From NCBI GenBank assembly GCA_019637315.1, contig JAHBVU010000020.1, positions 1 through 64,000 of the forward strand: a stretch of 64,000 nucleotides of DNA, given 5' to 3'. The DNA is from Gemmatimonadales bacterium (GTDB lineage Bacteria > Gemmatimonadota > Gemmatimonadetes > Gemmatimonadales > GWC2-71-9). This document shows positions 56,239 to 63,561 of this stretch, piece after piece. The notes beneath the pieces were generated by a model that saw only the letters and a program-made list of their open reading frames with translations, searched no databases and had not been told where the DNA came from. Both the position numbers and the translations under genes were made by a program. Numbering within the stretch: position 1 is the first letter of the stretch; each line of letters starts with the position of its first letter.

Positions 56239-57504
56239 TCAGCGGGGAAGCAGCGACTCGATCACGTCGCACGCGGCGCTGGCGCCTCCCTCGGCGCGGA
56301 CCTGCGCCGCCACCGCCTGAGCCCTGTCATGGCAGATCGGGTCGTCGAGCAGTCGGCGCAGTTCGCGGGCGACGCGCCTGGCCCGATACCGGGAGGGTAG
56401 CAGGGTGCGCGAACACCCCAACCGGGCAACTCGATGAGCGTTGTCCGGCTGATCGTGAGAGAACGGCACGGTCAGCATGGGTCGACCGGATCGCAGGGCC
56501 TGATGCAGGGTGCCGATCCCACCCTGATGGACGATGGCCGCCGCATGAGGGAAAAGAGCTGCATGAGGGGCATAGGGCTCGAGACGCACGGTATCGGGGA
56601 CGGTGCCGATGGGTTGGTTCCCCGCATGCGCACCGACCAGCAGAACTGCTCGAACACCAAGGATTTGAACCGCAGCCAGGCTCTCCTCGAAGAAGGTCCC
56701 GGCGGCAGCCACGGCCGCACTTCCCAGGGTGAAAACAACTGGCGCCGGGCCCGCCGCCAGGAAATCGATCAGCGCGGCGGACAGTGGTTGCTCCGCATCG
56801 ACGCCGTTGTACTGCACGGCCCCAGTTACCGTTACGTTCTCTGGCCAGTCGGGCTTCGGCTCGGCCAGCACGCTCGAGAACAGCGCGATAACGGCTGCCG
56901 GGGAATGCTGTCCTTCGGCCAGCGGGTTGAGCGTTGTCGGGAGACCCAGGGCACGGCGACGGTCCTCGACGGGGCGGACCCAACGGCGCGTCATTGCCTT
57001 GCCCAGCCGGGTGAAGAGACTGGCGACGCCGGGAATAGCCTCGAGACCCTTGGTCCACGGTGCGCCCGGGGCAACCGGCATATCGTAGCGCGAAAGAAAC
57101 GAAATCGGCGCCAGGACTGTCGAAACCCAGGGGATCGCGGCCTTCTCGGCCAAGTAGACGGCGGCAAACGACAAGGGATGGGTCACCACCAGGTCCGCAT
57201 CGGCGAGCAGCGGCGCGATATCCGCCTCGGAGTCCGCCAGTGCGGGCATCATGATCTCACGAATCAGATACTCCGTCCCGCGGGCCGGGTCCATGATGCG
57301 GGCGATGGTCGCGATGTCGTTCAGGTCGCCGTCCGGCCGGACGGCATGGAACTCGAGCCCCTCGCGCTCGACCAGATCGCGGGCGTAGCCCGGCATGGCG
57401 AGGACCGGATGATGACCGCGCGCGCGGAGCTCGAGCGCGAGGCCAACGTAGGGAAAGACGTCGCCATAGGAGCCGAAGCTGGTGAGAACGATTCGATGAC
57501 CCAT
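56239..57504 (-). CDS. MGT/GT1-type glycosyltransferase next to the lasso genes
   Basis: 421 residues of the macrolide-glycosyltransferase-like GT-B family. The N-domain begins MGHRIVLTSFGSYGDVFPYVGLALELRARGH and the C-domain has VVFTLGSAAV and the donor-binding HQGGIGTLHQALRSGRPMLTVPFSHDQPDNA. Enzymes of this class move a hexose from a nucleotide sugar to natural products, lipids or sterols. It starts 100 bases after the cyclase gene on the same strand with no terminator seen between. That suggests membership of the lasso operon and possible glycosylation of the peptide; the acceptor is not proven. Confidence 0.88.
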   Translation of the reverse strand: MGHRIVLTSFGSYGDVFPYVGLALELRARGHHPVLAMPGYARDLVEREGLEFHAVRPDGDLNDIATIARIMDPARGTEYLIREIMMPALADSEADIAPLLADADLVVTHPLSFAAVYLAEKAAIPWVSTVLAPISFLSRYDMPVAPGAPWTKGLEAIPGVASLFTRLGKAMTRRWVRPVEDRRRALGLPTTLNPLAEGQHSPAAVIALFSSVLAEPKPDWPENVTVTGAVQYNGVDAEQPLSAALIDFLAAGPAPVVFTLGSAAVAAAGTFFEESLAAVQILGVRAVLLVGAHAGNQPIGTVPDTVRLEPYAPHAALFPHAAAIVHQGGIGTLHQALRSGRPMLTVPFSHDQPDNAHRVARLGCSRTLLPSRYRARRVARELRRLLDDPICHDRAQAVAAQVRAEGGASAACDVIESLLPR

Positions 57505-59287: not shown

Positions 59288-59415
59288 GAAGAACGGACGG
59301 CCATTGATCGTCGTGACGACCGGGTCGGGTCGTGCGAACCAGACGAGGCGCCCGTCCGGGTGGAGTTGTCCCGCGAAGCGGACCGGCTCGGATGCTCCCC
59401 GCGGTTCGGACGGGG

Positions 59416-60168
59416 TTACTGGAGAACGGCGATCGGGGTGAATCGGGCGACCTCGTGGGGCTGGTGGAGCAGCGGTGTGTCGCCGAGTTCAACCCATGCG
59501 TGGGCGATGAAGGGGCTGGTGCAGACGCCGATGACGTGGCGGATGGCACAGCCGCGCTCGCGCAGAAACGAATAGAGCGCCAGCGAGCGGGGCAGGCAGT
59601 CGTTCCGGCCTCGTCGGGAGATGAGAAACATCTCGGCACGGCGGAATGCAGCCAGCAGGCGCTCGACAGGAGGCGGATCTGCCGACCCGCGCGCGCCGGC
59701 AGCCGCGCGCGCGGTTGCTCCGGCGTAGGCGGAGGGCAGACCACCGACCGCCAGGCTGAGGCTGGTTCGAAGACAGGCGAGCCAGGCATGGAGGGAAGCC
59801 GGCAGGAGATGGAGGATTCGCGGCCTCCGTGCGTGGTTGACAGGCGGAATGTCACGAGTGCCGTTGCCGGCGGGGGCTGCGGCTGGGCGAATCAGGCCCC
59901 GCTGTTCGCAGTCGCTGATGAACCGGTCCAGATCGGCGGCAAGCCGATCGGGCTCGACATCGAACCGAGTGGTGAGTTGCGCACCTAGAGAACTGCGATC
60001 GTTCCCGGCTGTGATCCCGGACCACATTGCCATGGCCGAGCCGGTCAGGCTGAGATAGGACCCCGACCGGAGGCAGAGAATGGTGACGAGATCACCCGAA
60101 TCGAGCCACCTGACGTGTGGTGATGCCTCCCAGCGCGCCGACGGCCGGTCCTGCTGCGCCTCGGACAC
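59416..60168 (-). CDS. Lasso peptide leader peptidase with fused RRE (protein B)
   Basis: 250 residues starting with GTG. Residues 15-95 form a PqqD-like RiPP recognition element (VRWLDSGDLVTILCLRSGSYLSLTGSAMAMWS) that would bind the leader. Residues about 110-245 form the transglutaminase-like lasso B2 protease: Cys in GRNDCLPRSLALYSFLRERG, His in SPFIAHAWVELGD and the acid following. It removes the leader so that the core N-terminus is freed for cyclisation. It follows the precursor stop by 33 bases, and its fused form is the proteobacterial-style arrangement. Confidence 0.92.
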   Translation of the reverse strand: MSEAQQDRPSARWEASPHVRWLDSGDLVTILCLRSGSYLSLTGSAMAMWSGITAGNDRSSLGAQLTTRFDVEPDRLAADLDRFISDCEQRGLIRPAAAPAGNGTRDIPPVNHARRPRILHLLPASLHAWLACLRTSLSLAVGGLPSAYAGATARAAAGARGSADPPPVERLLAAFRRAEMFLISRRGRNDCLPRSLALYSFLRERGCAIRHVIGVCTSPFIAHAWVELGDTPLLHQPHEVARFTPIAVLQ

Positions 60169-60201: not shown

Positions 60202-60402
60202 CTACTGCTTCCAGCTGCGCCCCTGCTCAGAGCTTCCGTCATGGAACGGGCCGGCAGACGACCAGCCGGTCAGGCCCGTTCCTGATCCGATGTCCAGAAT
60301 CTCGGGTGACGAGTACGGGAGCCGTGGTGCCGGCTGGGAGGACTCGGCGTTCGACTCGTTGTCGAGGGTCGGGGACTGGTGAGATACGTCGCGATCGTTC
60401 AT
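60202..60402 (-). CDS. Lasso peptide precursor (protein A)
   Basis: 66 residues with GGAG six bases before the ATG. The leader obeys the RRE-binding rule: Tyr30, Pro33, Ile35 (usually Leu), Gly39 and Thr45, the penultimate leader residue. Cleavage after Gly46 leaves the core WSSAGPFHDGSSEQGRSWKQ. Asp55 is core position 9, so Trp1 would form a nine-residue ring with Asp9 and leave an 11-residue tail in which Arg16, Trp18 or Lys19 could act as plugs. Trp at position 1 is known from fusilassin. The placing next to B and C genes supports the call; the mature structure is predicted only. Confidence 0.9.
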   Translation of the reverse strand: MNDRDVSHQSPTLDNESNAESSQPAPRLPYSSPEILDIGSGTGLTGWSSAGPFHDGSSEQGRSWKQ

Positions 60403-60521: not shown

Positions 60522-63221
60522 CTAGTCGCCGCGGAGCACGCTGCCCGGGGGCACCCGCGCCGCCCGAACTGCCGGCAGGAAGCTCGCGATGAAGGCCACC
60601 AAACCGGTCAACAGGATCACGGCAACGAATGTCAGCGGATCGGTGGGGCTGACGCCCTCGAGTACTCGGCTCAGGAGACCGGTCAGTCCGAGCGCGAGCG
60701 CGGTGCCGATCGCGATACCGGCCGCGGTCTGTCGGAGGCCCGGCCACAGTCCGGCGCGGAGCAGTTCGATCGGTGGCGCGCCGAGTGCTGCGCGAATGCC
60801 AAACTCCTGGCGGCGGACGGCAACGGCGTGGGAGACGATCCCGAAGATCCCGATTGCCGCGAGGCCGAGTGCGATGATGCCAAAGCTGCTCAGTAAGCGC
60901 ATCGCAAAGTGCGGCGCGGCAATCGACGCACCCACGATCTCCTCCATGGTGCGGATCTCCGAGATCGGAAGCCGCGGGTCGACCTGACGTACAACGTTGC
61001 GCACTGGAGCGATGAGGGCCTTGGGATCGCCGTCGGTTCGGATGGCCAGGCTCAAGCTGCGAATCGTGCTGCCCGGTGCCCGAGCGAACTGAGCGACGGT
61101 CACGTAGAAGCCGGGTTTGATGGTGCTCTTCAGGGTGTTGTGGTGAACGTCCTCGACCACGCCGACGATATGGTAAGGAGGCGCGGCAAGACCTAGTGAA
61201 CTGCCGATCAGAACGCGGGTGCCCAGCGCGGAGCGTCCCCCCAGGTAGCGATCGACGAAGGTCCGATTCACGACCATTGCGAGCGGCCCGTTCAGGTCGT
61301 CGCCGCTGTCGAGGAGGCGTCCTTCGAGCAGGCGATAGCCCATTGCCTCGAGCCCACCTGGCGTCACGATCTGCCAGTCGCCCGGGGTGCCCTGGTTTGG
61401 CGGCGGGGTATAGCCTTCGACGGCCATGCCCCAGTCGCCCATATCCGTGGCGAGGGGGAGGAGACGCACCGCACCGACCGAGCGGACTCCCGGAATCCGG
61501 CCGACTTCAGCCGTCAGCGTATTCCAGAACCCCGCCACCGCTGCGGAGTCGCCGTACCAGGTCGACGGGGTCGACAGGCGCATGGTCAGTACGCCACGCG
61601 GATCGAAACCCGGGTCGAGCGCCAGCAGGTTCCGGACGGTGCGCACCAGCAGCCCCGCACCCGTGACGAGTACCACTGCAAGGGCAATCTCCGCCGTGAC
61701 CAGCGTCTGGCGCCAGCGCAATCGGCCCTTGCCTGCTGACGCGCGGTGGCCGGACTCACGCAGCTCGTCGGCCGGGTCGAGCTGGCGCACCTGCAGCGAC
61801 GGCAGAATGCCGGTGAGAATGGCGGTCAGTGTGGCGATCAGGAGCGCGACGCCCAGGAGAAGCGGATCGATCCGCGCCTCCGCTACGCGCGGCAGTGACG
61901 TCATTCCGAGCTGCCGGATGGCGGCAACGGTGAGCCAGGCGATCACGATGCCGGCAACCGCGCCGGCCGCGGCGAGCACGCCGGTTTCGATGAAGAGGAG
62001 CCGTACGAGGCGGGCCTGTCCGGCGCCCAATGCGGTACGGACGGCGAGCTCACGCCGCCGCCGCTCGCCGCGCACGAGCAGCAGGCCGGCCACGTTGGCG
62101 CAAGCGATCAGCAGCACGATGCCCACGGCGCCGAGCAGGACGAGCAGCGGCTGGCGGACCTCGCCGCTCACGAGGTCGTCGACCGGAATCGTGAAGGCGC
62201 GGAACCCGAAGGCGGCGGTGTAGATGTTGTCGCGGACGAACCCGGCAACCCGTTCACGCAGCTGCGCGTCGGCCTGCGCCGCCGTCGCGCCTGGGGCCAG
62301 GCGTGCCACCGCATAGAAGTTGTGGCTGCCGCCTCCCGGGTTCATGGCGGGCCCGGGGACTGCACCTTGCTGCGCAGCATCGGTTGCCAGCGGCAGGTAG
62401 ACATCCGTGGCTCCGTCGGCGCCGAAATCGAGCGGCAGCTTGAAGCCGGGAGGCAGGACACCAAGGAGCGATGCGCTCGCTCCGTTGACCTCGATGGTGC
62501 CGCCGACGATCGCCGGGTCGGCGCCGAATCGTCGAGACCACAGTTCATGACTGATCACGGCAACGGCCGGGCCGCCCGGCCGGTCCTCGTCCTCGGTAAA
62601 CCCGCGGCCGCGAATCGGGGTCACCCCCAGGACGCGGAACAGGTCGGCCCCCACCTGGGCGCTGCGAACCCGTTCCGGCTGGTCGCCGCCGGTGAGATTG
62701 ACCGCGCCGCTCGCGAACAGAGCGATGCTGGCAAAGGCGGGTATCTCGGCTTGCCACGCTTCGTACTCATCGTACGAGAGCCAGGTGCGATCGACGTCCT
62801 TCCATGCGCTCCAGACCGTGACGATACCGGCAGGGTTCTCGTACGGCAGCGGCGTGAGGAGCGCGCTGCGCACCACCGCGAACAGCGCAGTTGCTGCGCC
62901 GATGCCGACGCCGAGGGCGAGCACGACGATGGTCGTCAGGCCTGCGTCGCGGCGGAGCGAACGAATGGCAAAGGCAAGATCCTTGAGCACAGACTCGATC
63001 CGGCTGCCACCCCGCTCGTCTCGCACCTCCTCGGCCACCCTGGTCGTGTTGCCGAAAGCACGGATTGCCGTCTGTCGGGCATCCTTGGGCGCCTCACCCT
63101 GATCGATCCGGTACTCCGTTTCGAGATCCAGATGGTGGCGGATCTCTTCGGCGAGCTCGCGATCGGCTCGGCGTCGCCCTATCAGCGCCTCGAGAGCCGA
63201 ACGAATGGAGGACCAGGCCAT
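60522..63221 (-). CDS. ADOP-type FtsX/MacB-like permease
   Basis: 899 residues. An N-terminal cytosolic segment (about 1-70, DRELAEEIRHHLDLETEYRIDQGEAPKDARQTAIRAFGN) is typical of the ADOP family found in Acidobacteria and Gemmatimonadota. Two FtsX/MacB halves follow, each with a periplasmic MacB-PCD domain and four helices, ending PAVRAARVPPGSVLRGD. There is no fused ATPase; a separate one must drive it if it is an active transporter. It starts seven bases after the PadR stop and lies 119 bases upstream of the lasso precursor, same strand. Confidence 0.9.
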   Translation of the reverse strand: MAWSSIRSALEALIGRRRADRELAEEIRHHLDLETEYRIDQGEAPKDARQTAIRAFGNTTRVAEEVRDERGGSRIESVLKDLAFAIRSLRRDAGLTTIVVLALGVGIGAATALFAVVRSALLTPLPYENPAGIVTVWSAWKDVDRTWLSYDEYEAWQAEIPAFASIALFASGAVNLTGGDQPERVRSAQVGADLFRVLGVTPIRGRGFTEDEDRPGGPAVAVISHELWSRRFGADPAIVGGTIEVNGASASLLGVLPPGFKLPLDFGADGATDVYLPLATDAAQQGAVPGPAMNPGGGSHNFYAVARLAPGATAAQADAQLRERVAGFVRDNIYTAAFGFRAFTIPVDDLVSGEVRQPLLVLLGAVGIVLLIACANVAGLLLVRGERRRRELAVRTALGAGQARLVRLLFIETGVLAAAGAVAGIVIAWLTVAAIRQLGMTSLPRVAEARIDPLLLGVALLIATLTAILTGILPSLQVRQLDPADELRESGHRASAGKGRLRWRQTLVTAEIALAVVLVTGAGLLVRTVRNLLALDPGFDPRGVLTMRLSTPSTWYGDSAAVAGFWNTLTAEVGRIPGVRSVGAVRLLPLATDMGDWGMAVEGYTPPPNQGTPGDWQIVTPGGLEAMGYRLLEGRLLDSGDDLNGPLAMVVNRTFVDRYLGGRSALGTRVLIGSSLGLAAPPYHIVGVVEDVHHNTLKSTIKPGFYVTVAQFARAPGSTIRSLSLAIRTDGDPKALIAPVRNVVRQVDPRLPISEIRTMEEIVGASIAAPHFAMRLLSSFGIIALGLAAIGIFGIVSHAVAVRRQEFGIRAALGAPPIELLRAGLWPGLRQTAAGIAIGTALALGLTGLLSRVLEGVSPTDPLTFVAVILLTGLVAFIASFLPAVRAARVPPGSVLRGD

Positions 63222-63228
63222 GAGAACC

Positions 63229-63561
63229 TCAGGCGAAGCGAAGGACGCGCTCGACCGCTCCGGCTGAGCGGCGCCAGTCGGCAACAGCGGAGTCGAGCGC
63301 TCGGCGCCCCGCCGGAGTCAGGTGGTAGTACCGGGCCCGGCGGTTGTTCTCGCTGGGTCGCCATTCTGCACGGATCAGGTCGCGGCGGAGCAGCCGCTGC
63401 AAGGCGGGGTAGAGGGAGCCCTGATTGACATCGAACACGTCACCCGAAACCTGCCGGAGTCGGAACGAAAGACCCCAGCCGTGGGACGTCTCGGCAGAGA
63501 GCAGCCTGAGGATCAGCATCTCCAGGGTGCCCTGGAGAACATCGGAGCGAGGGTCGGCCAT
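63229..63561 (-). CDS. PadR-family transcriptional regulator
   Basis: 110 residues: winged helix LQGTLEMLILRLLSAETSHGWGLSFRLRQVSGDVFDVNQGSLYPALQRLLRRDLIRAEW and a C-terminal dimer helix. The pair PadR-ADOP permease is a recurrent module in this lineage, in which PadR presumably represses the permease operon in response to a small ligand. The seven-base gap to the permease supports co-transcription. Confidence 0.92.
   Translation of the reverse strand: MADPRSDVLQGTLEMLILRLLSAETSHGWGLSFRLRQVSGDVFDVNQGSLYPALQRLLRRDLIRAEWRPSENNRRARYYHLTPAGRRALDSAVADWRRSAGAVERVLRFA

Follow-up and report, generated by a model that had tools for sequence, protein, structure and literature searches.

The 64-kb stretch of DNA analysed here, called the window, carries a compact A-B-C operon on the minus strand. 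The gene for a fused B protein lies directly downstream of a short precursor gene on the same strand, and the gene for cyclase C comes next. The features of the locus are as follows.

60202..60402, minus strand: precursor A, 66 aa, consisting of a 46-aa leader and a 20-aa core
60265..60315, minus strand: leader recognition segment YSSPEILDIGSGTGLTG, recognised by sequence, with the same register in class relatives and in Pedobacter
60205..60264, minus strand: core WSSAGPFHDGSSEQGRSWKQ, with a predicted Trp1-Asp9 isopeptide ring and a putative plug
59416-60168, minus strand: fused B, 250 aa, with a PqqD/RRE domain at about 33-93 and a transglutaminase-like leader peptidase at 134-247
57605 to about 59383, minus strand: cyclase C, Asn_synthase preceded by a glutaminase-like domain at the N terminus, with a length of about 592 aa when counted from the homologous start
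59381..59383, minus strand: GTC codon at the expected start of C, the start position of relatives
56239..57504, minus strand: MGT-type glycosyltransferase (MGT/EryCIII-like), downstream of C on the same strand after a 100-nt gap
60522-63284: FtsX/MacB-like permease with a PadR neighbour, identified by sequence and not by profile

The open reading frame of precursor A runs from 60402 to 60202, starts with ATG and matches its description in the sequence-only reading exactly. It encodes MNDRDVSHQSPTLDNESNAESSQPAPRLPYSSPEILDIGSGTGLTG / WSSAGPFHDGSSEQGRSWKQ (leader / core), and a Shine-Dalgarno-like GGAG lies 6 nt upstream of the ATG. It is known that lasso leaders follow the rule YxxPx[LIV] with a penultimate Thr (PMC10368454). 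The segment YSSPEILDIGSGTGLTG conforms to this rule at -17, -14, -12 and -2, and its residues Tyr-17, Pro-14, Ile-12, Gly-8 and Thr-2 are those of a canonical lasso leader. When the strict leader pattern was combined with a core of 12-35 aa at the end of the ORF, precursor A was its single occurrence in the 64-kb window. First-order Markov random sequence of equal composition gave 0.017 occurrences per 64 kb, and in 60 random windows the leader pattern never came together with Asp/Glu at core positions 7-9. A chance ORF is ruled out by this expectation. The ORF, the leader register and the adjacent B and C genes bear out the earlier claim that a lasso precursor satisfying the RRE leader rule is encoded here.

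The cleavage site and the core were assigned because of the Y(-17)/P(-14)/[LI](-12)/T(-2) register. This register is shared with class relatives and with Pedobacter, in agreement with the proposed 20-residue core having Asp at position 9. Asp9 is the sole acid at core positions 7-9, and the placement of Trp at position 1 and of the acid at position 9 is fusilassin-like by sequence. The positions claimed for a Trp1-Asp9 ring thus stand, but the ring itself is still a prediction, as are its closure and the threading of the core. Trp18 or Arg16 could possibly act as the plug.

A lasso B2 protein was present in 119 of the 394 genomes of the window's class. The survey covered 97 lasso-type loci of this class, and precursors near the enzymes were found by means of the leader pattern. 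Dozens of relatives have Tyr-17, Pro-14, [LIV]-12, Gly-8 and Thr-2 in the register of the window, a likeness to which the search pattern itself contributes in part. In the 58 precursors that combine the strict leader with an acid at core positions 7-9, core residue 1 was Gly in 22, Lys in 12, Ala in 6, Val in 4, Thr in 4, Ser in 2 and Trp in 2, with six other residues occurring once each. The two with Trp1 are the window precursor and L136 (WGLASASDGGSILGN...), which agrees with the statement that Trp-first lasso peptides, known in fusilassin/fuscanodin, are few. The tail of the core is indeed polar, but this is less unusual than had been suggested, polar and charged tails being frequent among lasso precursors of the class (e.g. 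KVDNVGRTDGGTWPTRRT). A first residue other than Gly and a polar tail are both common in the class, and the window core is less novel in these two respects than claimed. A protein search for homologues of the precursor in the 394 class genomes gave noise-level matches only.

Several other observations came from the same survey. The genome contains a second, split-B lasso cluster (G000:C3, about 149600-152400; L033:4475-7351, minus strand) with the precursor MSKLTYVKPSVTKMGSVTEKTE/GGFKAEIMEMFSLRAAN and Glu9, close versions of which exist in a congener (G178, L062) and in a family member (G190, L021). A Lys-first family of 18-aa cores, KVDNxGxxDGGxxPxRRT (Asp9-Gly10-Gly11), is present in multiple copies in order-level relatives, with 1-3 precursors per cluster (L091, L093, L098, L110, L119, L128, L129). 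About 24 of the 97 loci, some of them cut by contig ends, have an RRE and/or a B2-type peptidase and no recognisable C nearby; these include L066, L068-L072, L074-L077, L027, L029 and L140. Lasso-like leaders with cores having no Asp/Glu at 7-9 were seen at L029 (NGFQTSLSCYSCS), L027 (NFNWCWMYPNFPGCSPPS) and L140 (MFADVYVNGRS). The loci of this C-less set possibly represent another RiPP type.

The RRE (B1/PqqD) and the transglutaminase-like peptidase (B2) that a lasso cluster requires are both present in the window, in fused form. The B protein scored 38.5 bits with PF05402 and 73.9 bits with PF13471, both over cut-off, and 63.7 bits with NF033537 (NCBIfam lasso B2, cut-off 33); an alternative naming of its domains is PqqD-Transglut_core3. 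Cys191 and His223 are conserved and the B2 Cys/His/Trp are kept in comparison with about 99 homologues. Among the surveyed loci of the class only the window has the fused form, the two parts of B lying in separate frames in the others. No fused-B relatives were detected in 395 Bacteroidota genomes, and among solved structures fused B had a marginal match to TfuB1 only (E 0.8).

Cyclase C scored 78.8 bits with PF00733, over cut-off, as expected for the asparagine-synthetase-like cyclase of a lasso cluster. Its motifs SGGLDS and GVGGD (SGGxDS, GxGGD) are intact and are invariant or nearly so in about 67 homologues. The start of the gene is less regular. Homology and an open frame extend from the Arg at 59380, and at the homologous start Pedobacter has MN-RFLAKLQTDGDLV where the window has V-RFAGQLHPDGRLV; class relatives begin M-R-M-FAGAIRLDGG. 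From the stop at 59491 down to 59287, the C frame contains no ATG, GTG or TTG. Standard starts in the frame are confined to GTG 59287 and its neighbour ATG 59284, some 32 codons into the homologous region, and GGGGAG lies 11 nt upstream of the GTC codon. It could be that the cluster is decaying: with the start lost, any translation would begin at GTG 59287, the cyclase would be truncated and probably inactive, and no lasso peptide would be made. The GTC at the position where relatives start agrees with such decay. However, the frame is open and conserved throughout, the N-terminal stretch upstream of 59287 included, and the protein retains its invariant catalytic residues. The data are explained equally well by one wrong base in the assembly, or by a start at GTC or some other non-standard codon in coupling with the stop of B, and decay is considered distinctly unlikely. 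Assembly error and non-standard start are favoured over start loss because the remainder of the C gene is intact.

The relatives of C are distant. The best match is encoded by Pedobacter sp. ANT_H27B plasmid pA27BH1 (NZ_MN657144.1), with 28.7% identity over 95% (E 7e-51), and the fused B of this plasmid is 31% identical to that of the window over 92%. Upstream of it is a 61-aa ORF, MEPNDLKSTKDQTLVKKQVSEIPNYMKPQIITIAKVGLVTH / GSRDSVDDDPGTSGYKYTKT, which is 28% identical to precursor A and its one known homologue. In 298 genomes of the window's own phylum no relative of C was as near as that of Pedobacter. The best was G224:C86 (L112), the class cyclase nearest to window C, which lies beside several near-identical precursors (GTTGVNTDACGCSVP...). 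A search of 84,980 species genomes for close relatives returned distant ones only (21-38% over parts), and IMG/VR gave none; no solved structure matched C. In a tree of 73 cyclases, made by a short search with no bootstrap, window C and Pedobacter C were paired with an SH-aLRT of 99, apart from the class groups. No paper on the window cluster or the Pedobacter cluster was found.

The two clusters have much in common. Both have the order A-B(fused)-C and a precursor with a long leader containing YxxPxI and Thr-2 in the same register, both encode a 20-aa core with an acid at position 9, and neither has a recognised exporter adjacent. The Pedobacter cluster differs in lying on a plasmid of Bacteroidota and in the normal ATG start of its C, in contrast to GTC in the window. 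Its core GSRDSVDDDPGTSGYKYTKT has Gly1 and Asp at 7, 8 and 9, whereas the window core has Trp1 and Asp9 only. Loss of Asp/Glu at core 7-9 in aligned precursors, which had been put forward as the point on which the ring assignment could fail, was looked for in the Pedobacter relative and not found, a result that favours the assignment. The divergence of C from the lasso cyclases of the class (25-28% identity) and its scores under the cut-offs of the NCBIfam lasso-cyclase models are in line with a non-lasso RiPP, in which B removes the leader and C forms some other amide bond. This is extremely unlikely in view of the ring acid at 9 and the canonical leader, and because both the A-B-C order and a ring acid recur in Pedobacter. 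The putative fused-B lineage is rare: the pA27BH1 cluster is the only other member found, and searches of 395 Bacteroidota genomes and of 298 genomes from the window's phylum added none.

The surroundings of the operon are consistent with an accessory element. In a congener the permease-PadR pair is kept and adjoins an unrelated gene in place of the lasso cluster, and the glycosyltransferase is missing from five congeners. Both observations suit a cluster that this genome seems to have acquired as an accessory. Its GC content does not stand out and gives no sign of recent transfer. In this genome the family of the permease has 14 strong matches, an abundance that may point to Gemmatimonadota. 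An ORF for an IS110-like transposase, seemingly frameshifted, was noted by eye at 1650-2789 of the window. No lasso exporter (ABC, D gene) was recognised in 54-66 kb, and near the cluster, where the neighbours are the glycosyltransferase and the permease, no isopeptidase, TonB receptor or immunity gene was recognised. An antibiotic role is not assumed, no exporter or immunity genes having been recognised. The glycosyltransferase could be part of the lasso operon, and its position, its absence from the congeners and the many Ser residues of the core would suit further glycosylation of the lasso peptide. Hexosylated lasso peptides do exist, as in pseudomycoidin (PMC9266682), but that modification relies on an unrelated nucleotidyltransferase-like protein. 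Moreover, small molecules are the usual substrates of MGT enzymes, the first set of lasso loci that was tested had no such gene, and the Pedobacter cluster has none next to it, which makes glycosylation highly unlikely.

The locus is very probably a lasso peptide operon of three genes (A, fused B and C) that belongs to a rare fused-B lineage and seems to have been acquired as an accessory element. By analogy with the established lasso pathway, the RRE half of B would bind the leader through Tyr-17, Pro-14 and Ile-12, and the peptidase half would cut after Thr-2-Gly-1. C would then, in an ATP-dependent manner, adenylate Asp9 and join the amine of Trp1 to it around the prefolded tail. The predicted product has a 9-residue ring and an 11-residue loop and tail, the tail possibly held by Trp18 or Arg16, and its computed monoisotopic mass is 2214.983 Da ([M+2H]2+ 1108.499). 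A wider proposal is that the window and the Pedobacter plasmid represent a small, horizontally scattered lineage of three-gene clusters with a fused RRE-peptidase, whose products would be polar lassos of 20 residues. In the window the lasso would have a Trp1-Asp9 ring and might be glycosylated by the neighbouring transferase, and translation of C would begin at a non-standard codon. This proposal is speculative and rather unlikely.

Among the records searched the window core seems to be new, but each part of the cluster is of a known class. The cluster is a real but fairly ordinary member of the predicted lasso type; what sets it apart is chiefly the Trp-first core and the location of its nearest enzyme relatives, which are on a Pedobacter plasmid and not in its own bacterial class. 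The understanding of lasso biosynthesis is unchanged by it. The class, in which the other clusters sampled have split enzymes, gains from it a predicted core that begins with Trp and an enzyme that fuses leader binding and peptidase, and the lasso machinery of the class is shown to belong to more than one lineage. Trp1 would also be a demanding test of the first residues accepted by a cyclase.

The proteobacterial benenodin-type clusters of Sphingopyxis and Novosphingobium have, like the window, a single B2-annotated B protein and no ABC transporter, but they carry an isopeptidase and a TonB receptor that are absent from the window, and their C falls in a separate clade. The split-B clusters found in the class to which the window belongs, G000:C3 (core GGFKAEIMEMFSLRAAN) of the same genome among them, share with it the leader register and the B2 and C families, and in some subgroups polar tails such as KVDNVGRTDGGTWPTRRT are frequent. 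Unlike the window they have separate B1 and B2, mostly Gly1 or Lys1, and a C that is only 25-28% identical. The actinobacterial fusilassin/fuscanodin of Thermobifida fusca has Trp1, as does the window core; it differs in its split B1/B2, its hydrophobic tail and its acid, Glu9, in contrast to the fused B, polar tail and Asp9 of the window. Its ring consists of 9 residues (PMC13352647), the size that is predicted for the window product.
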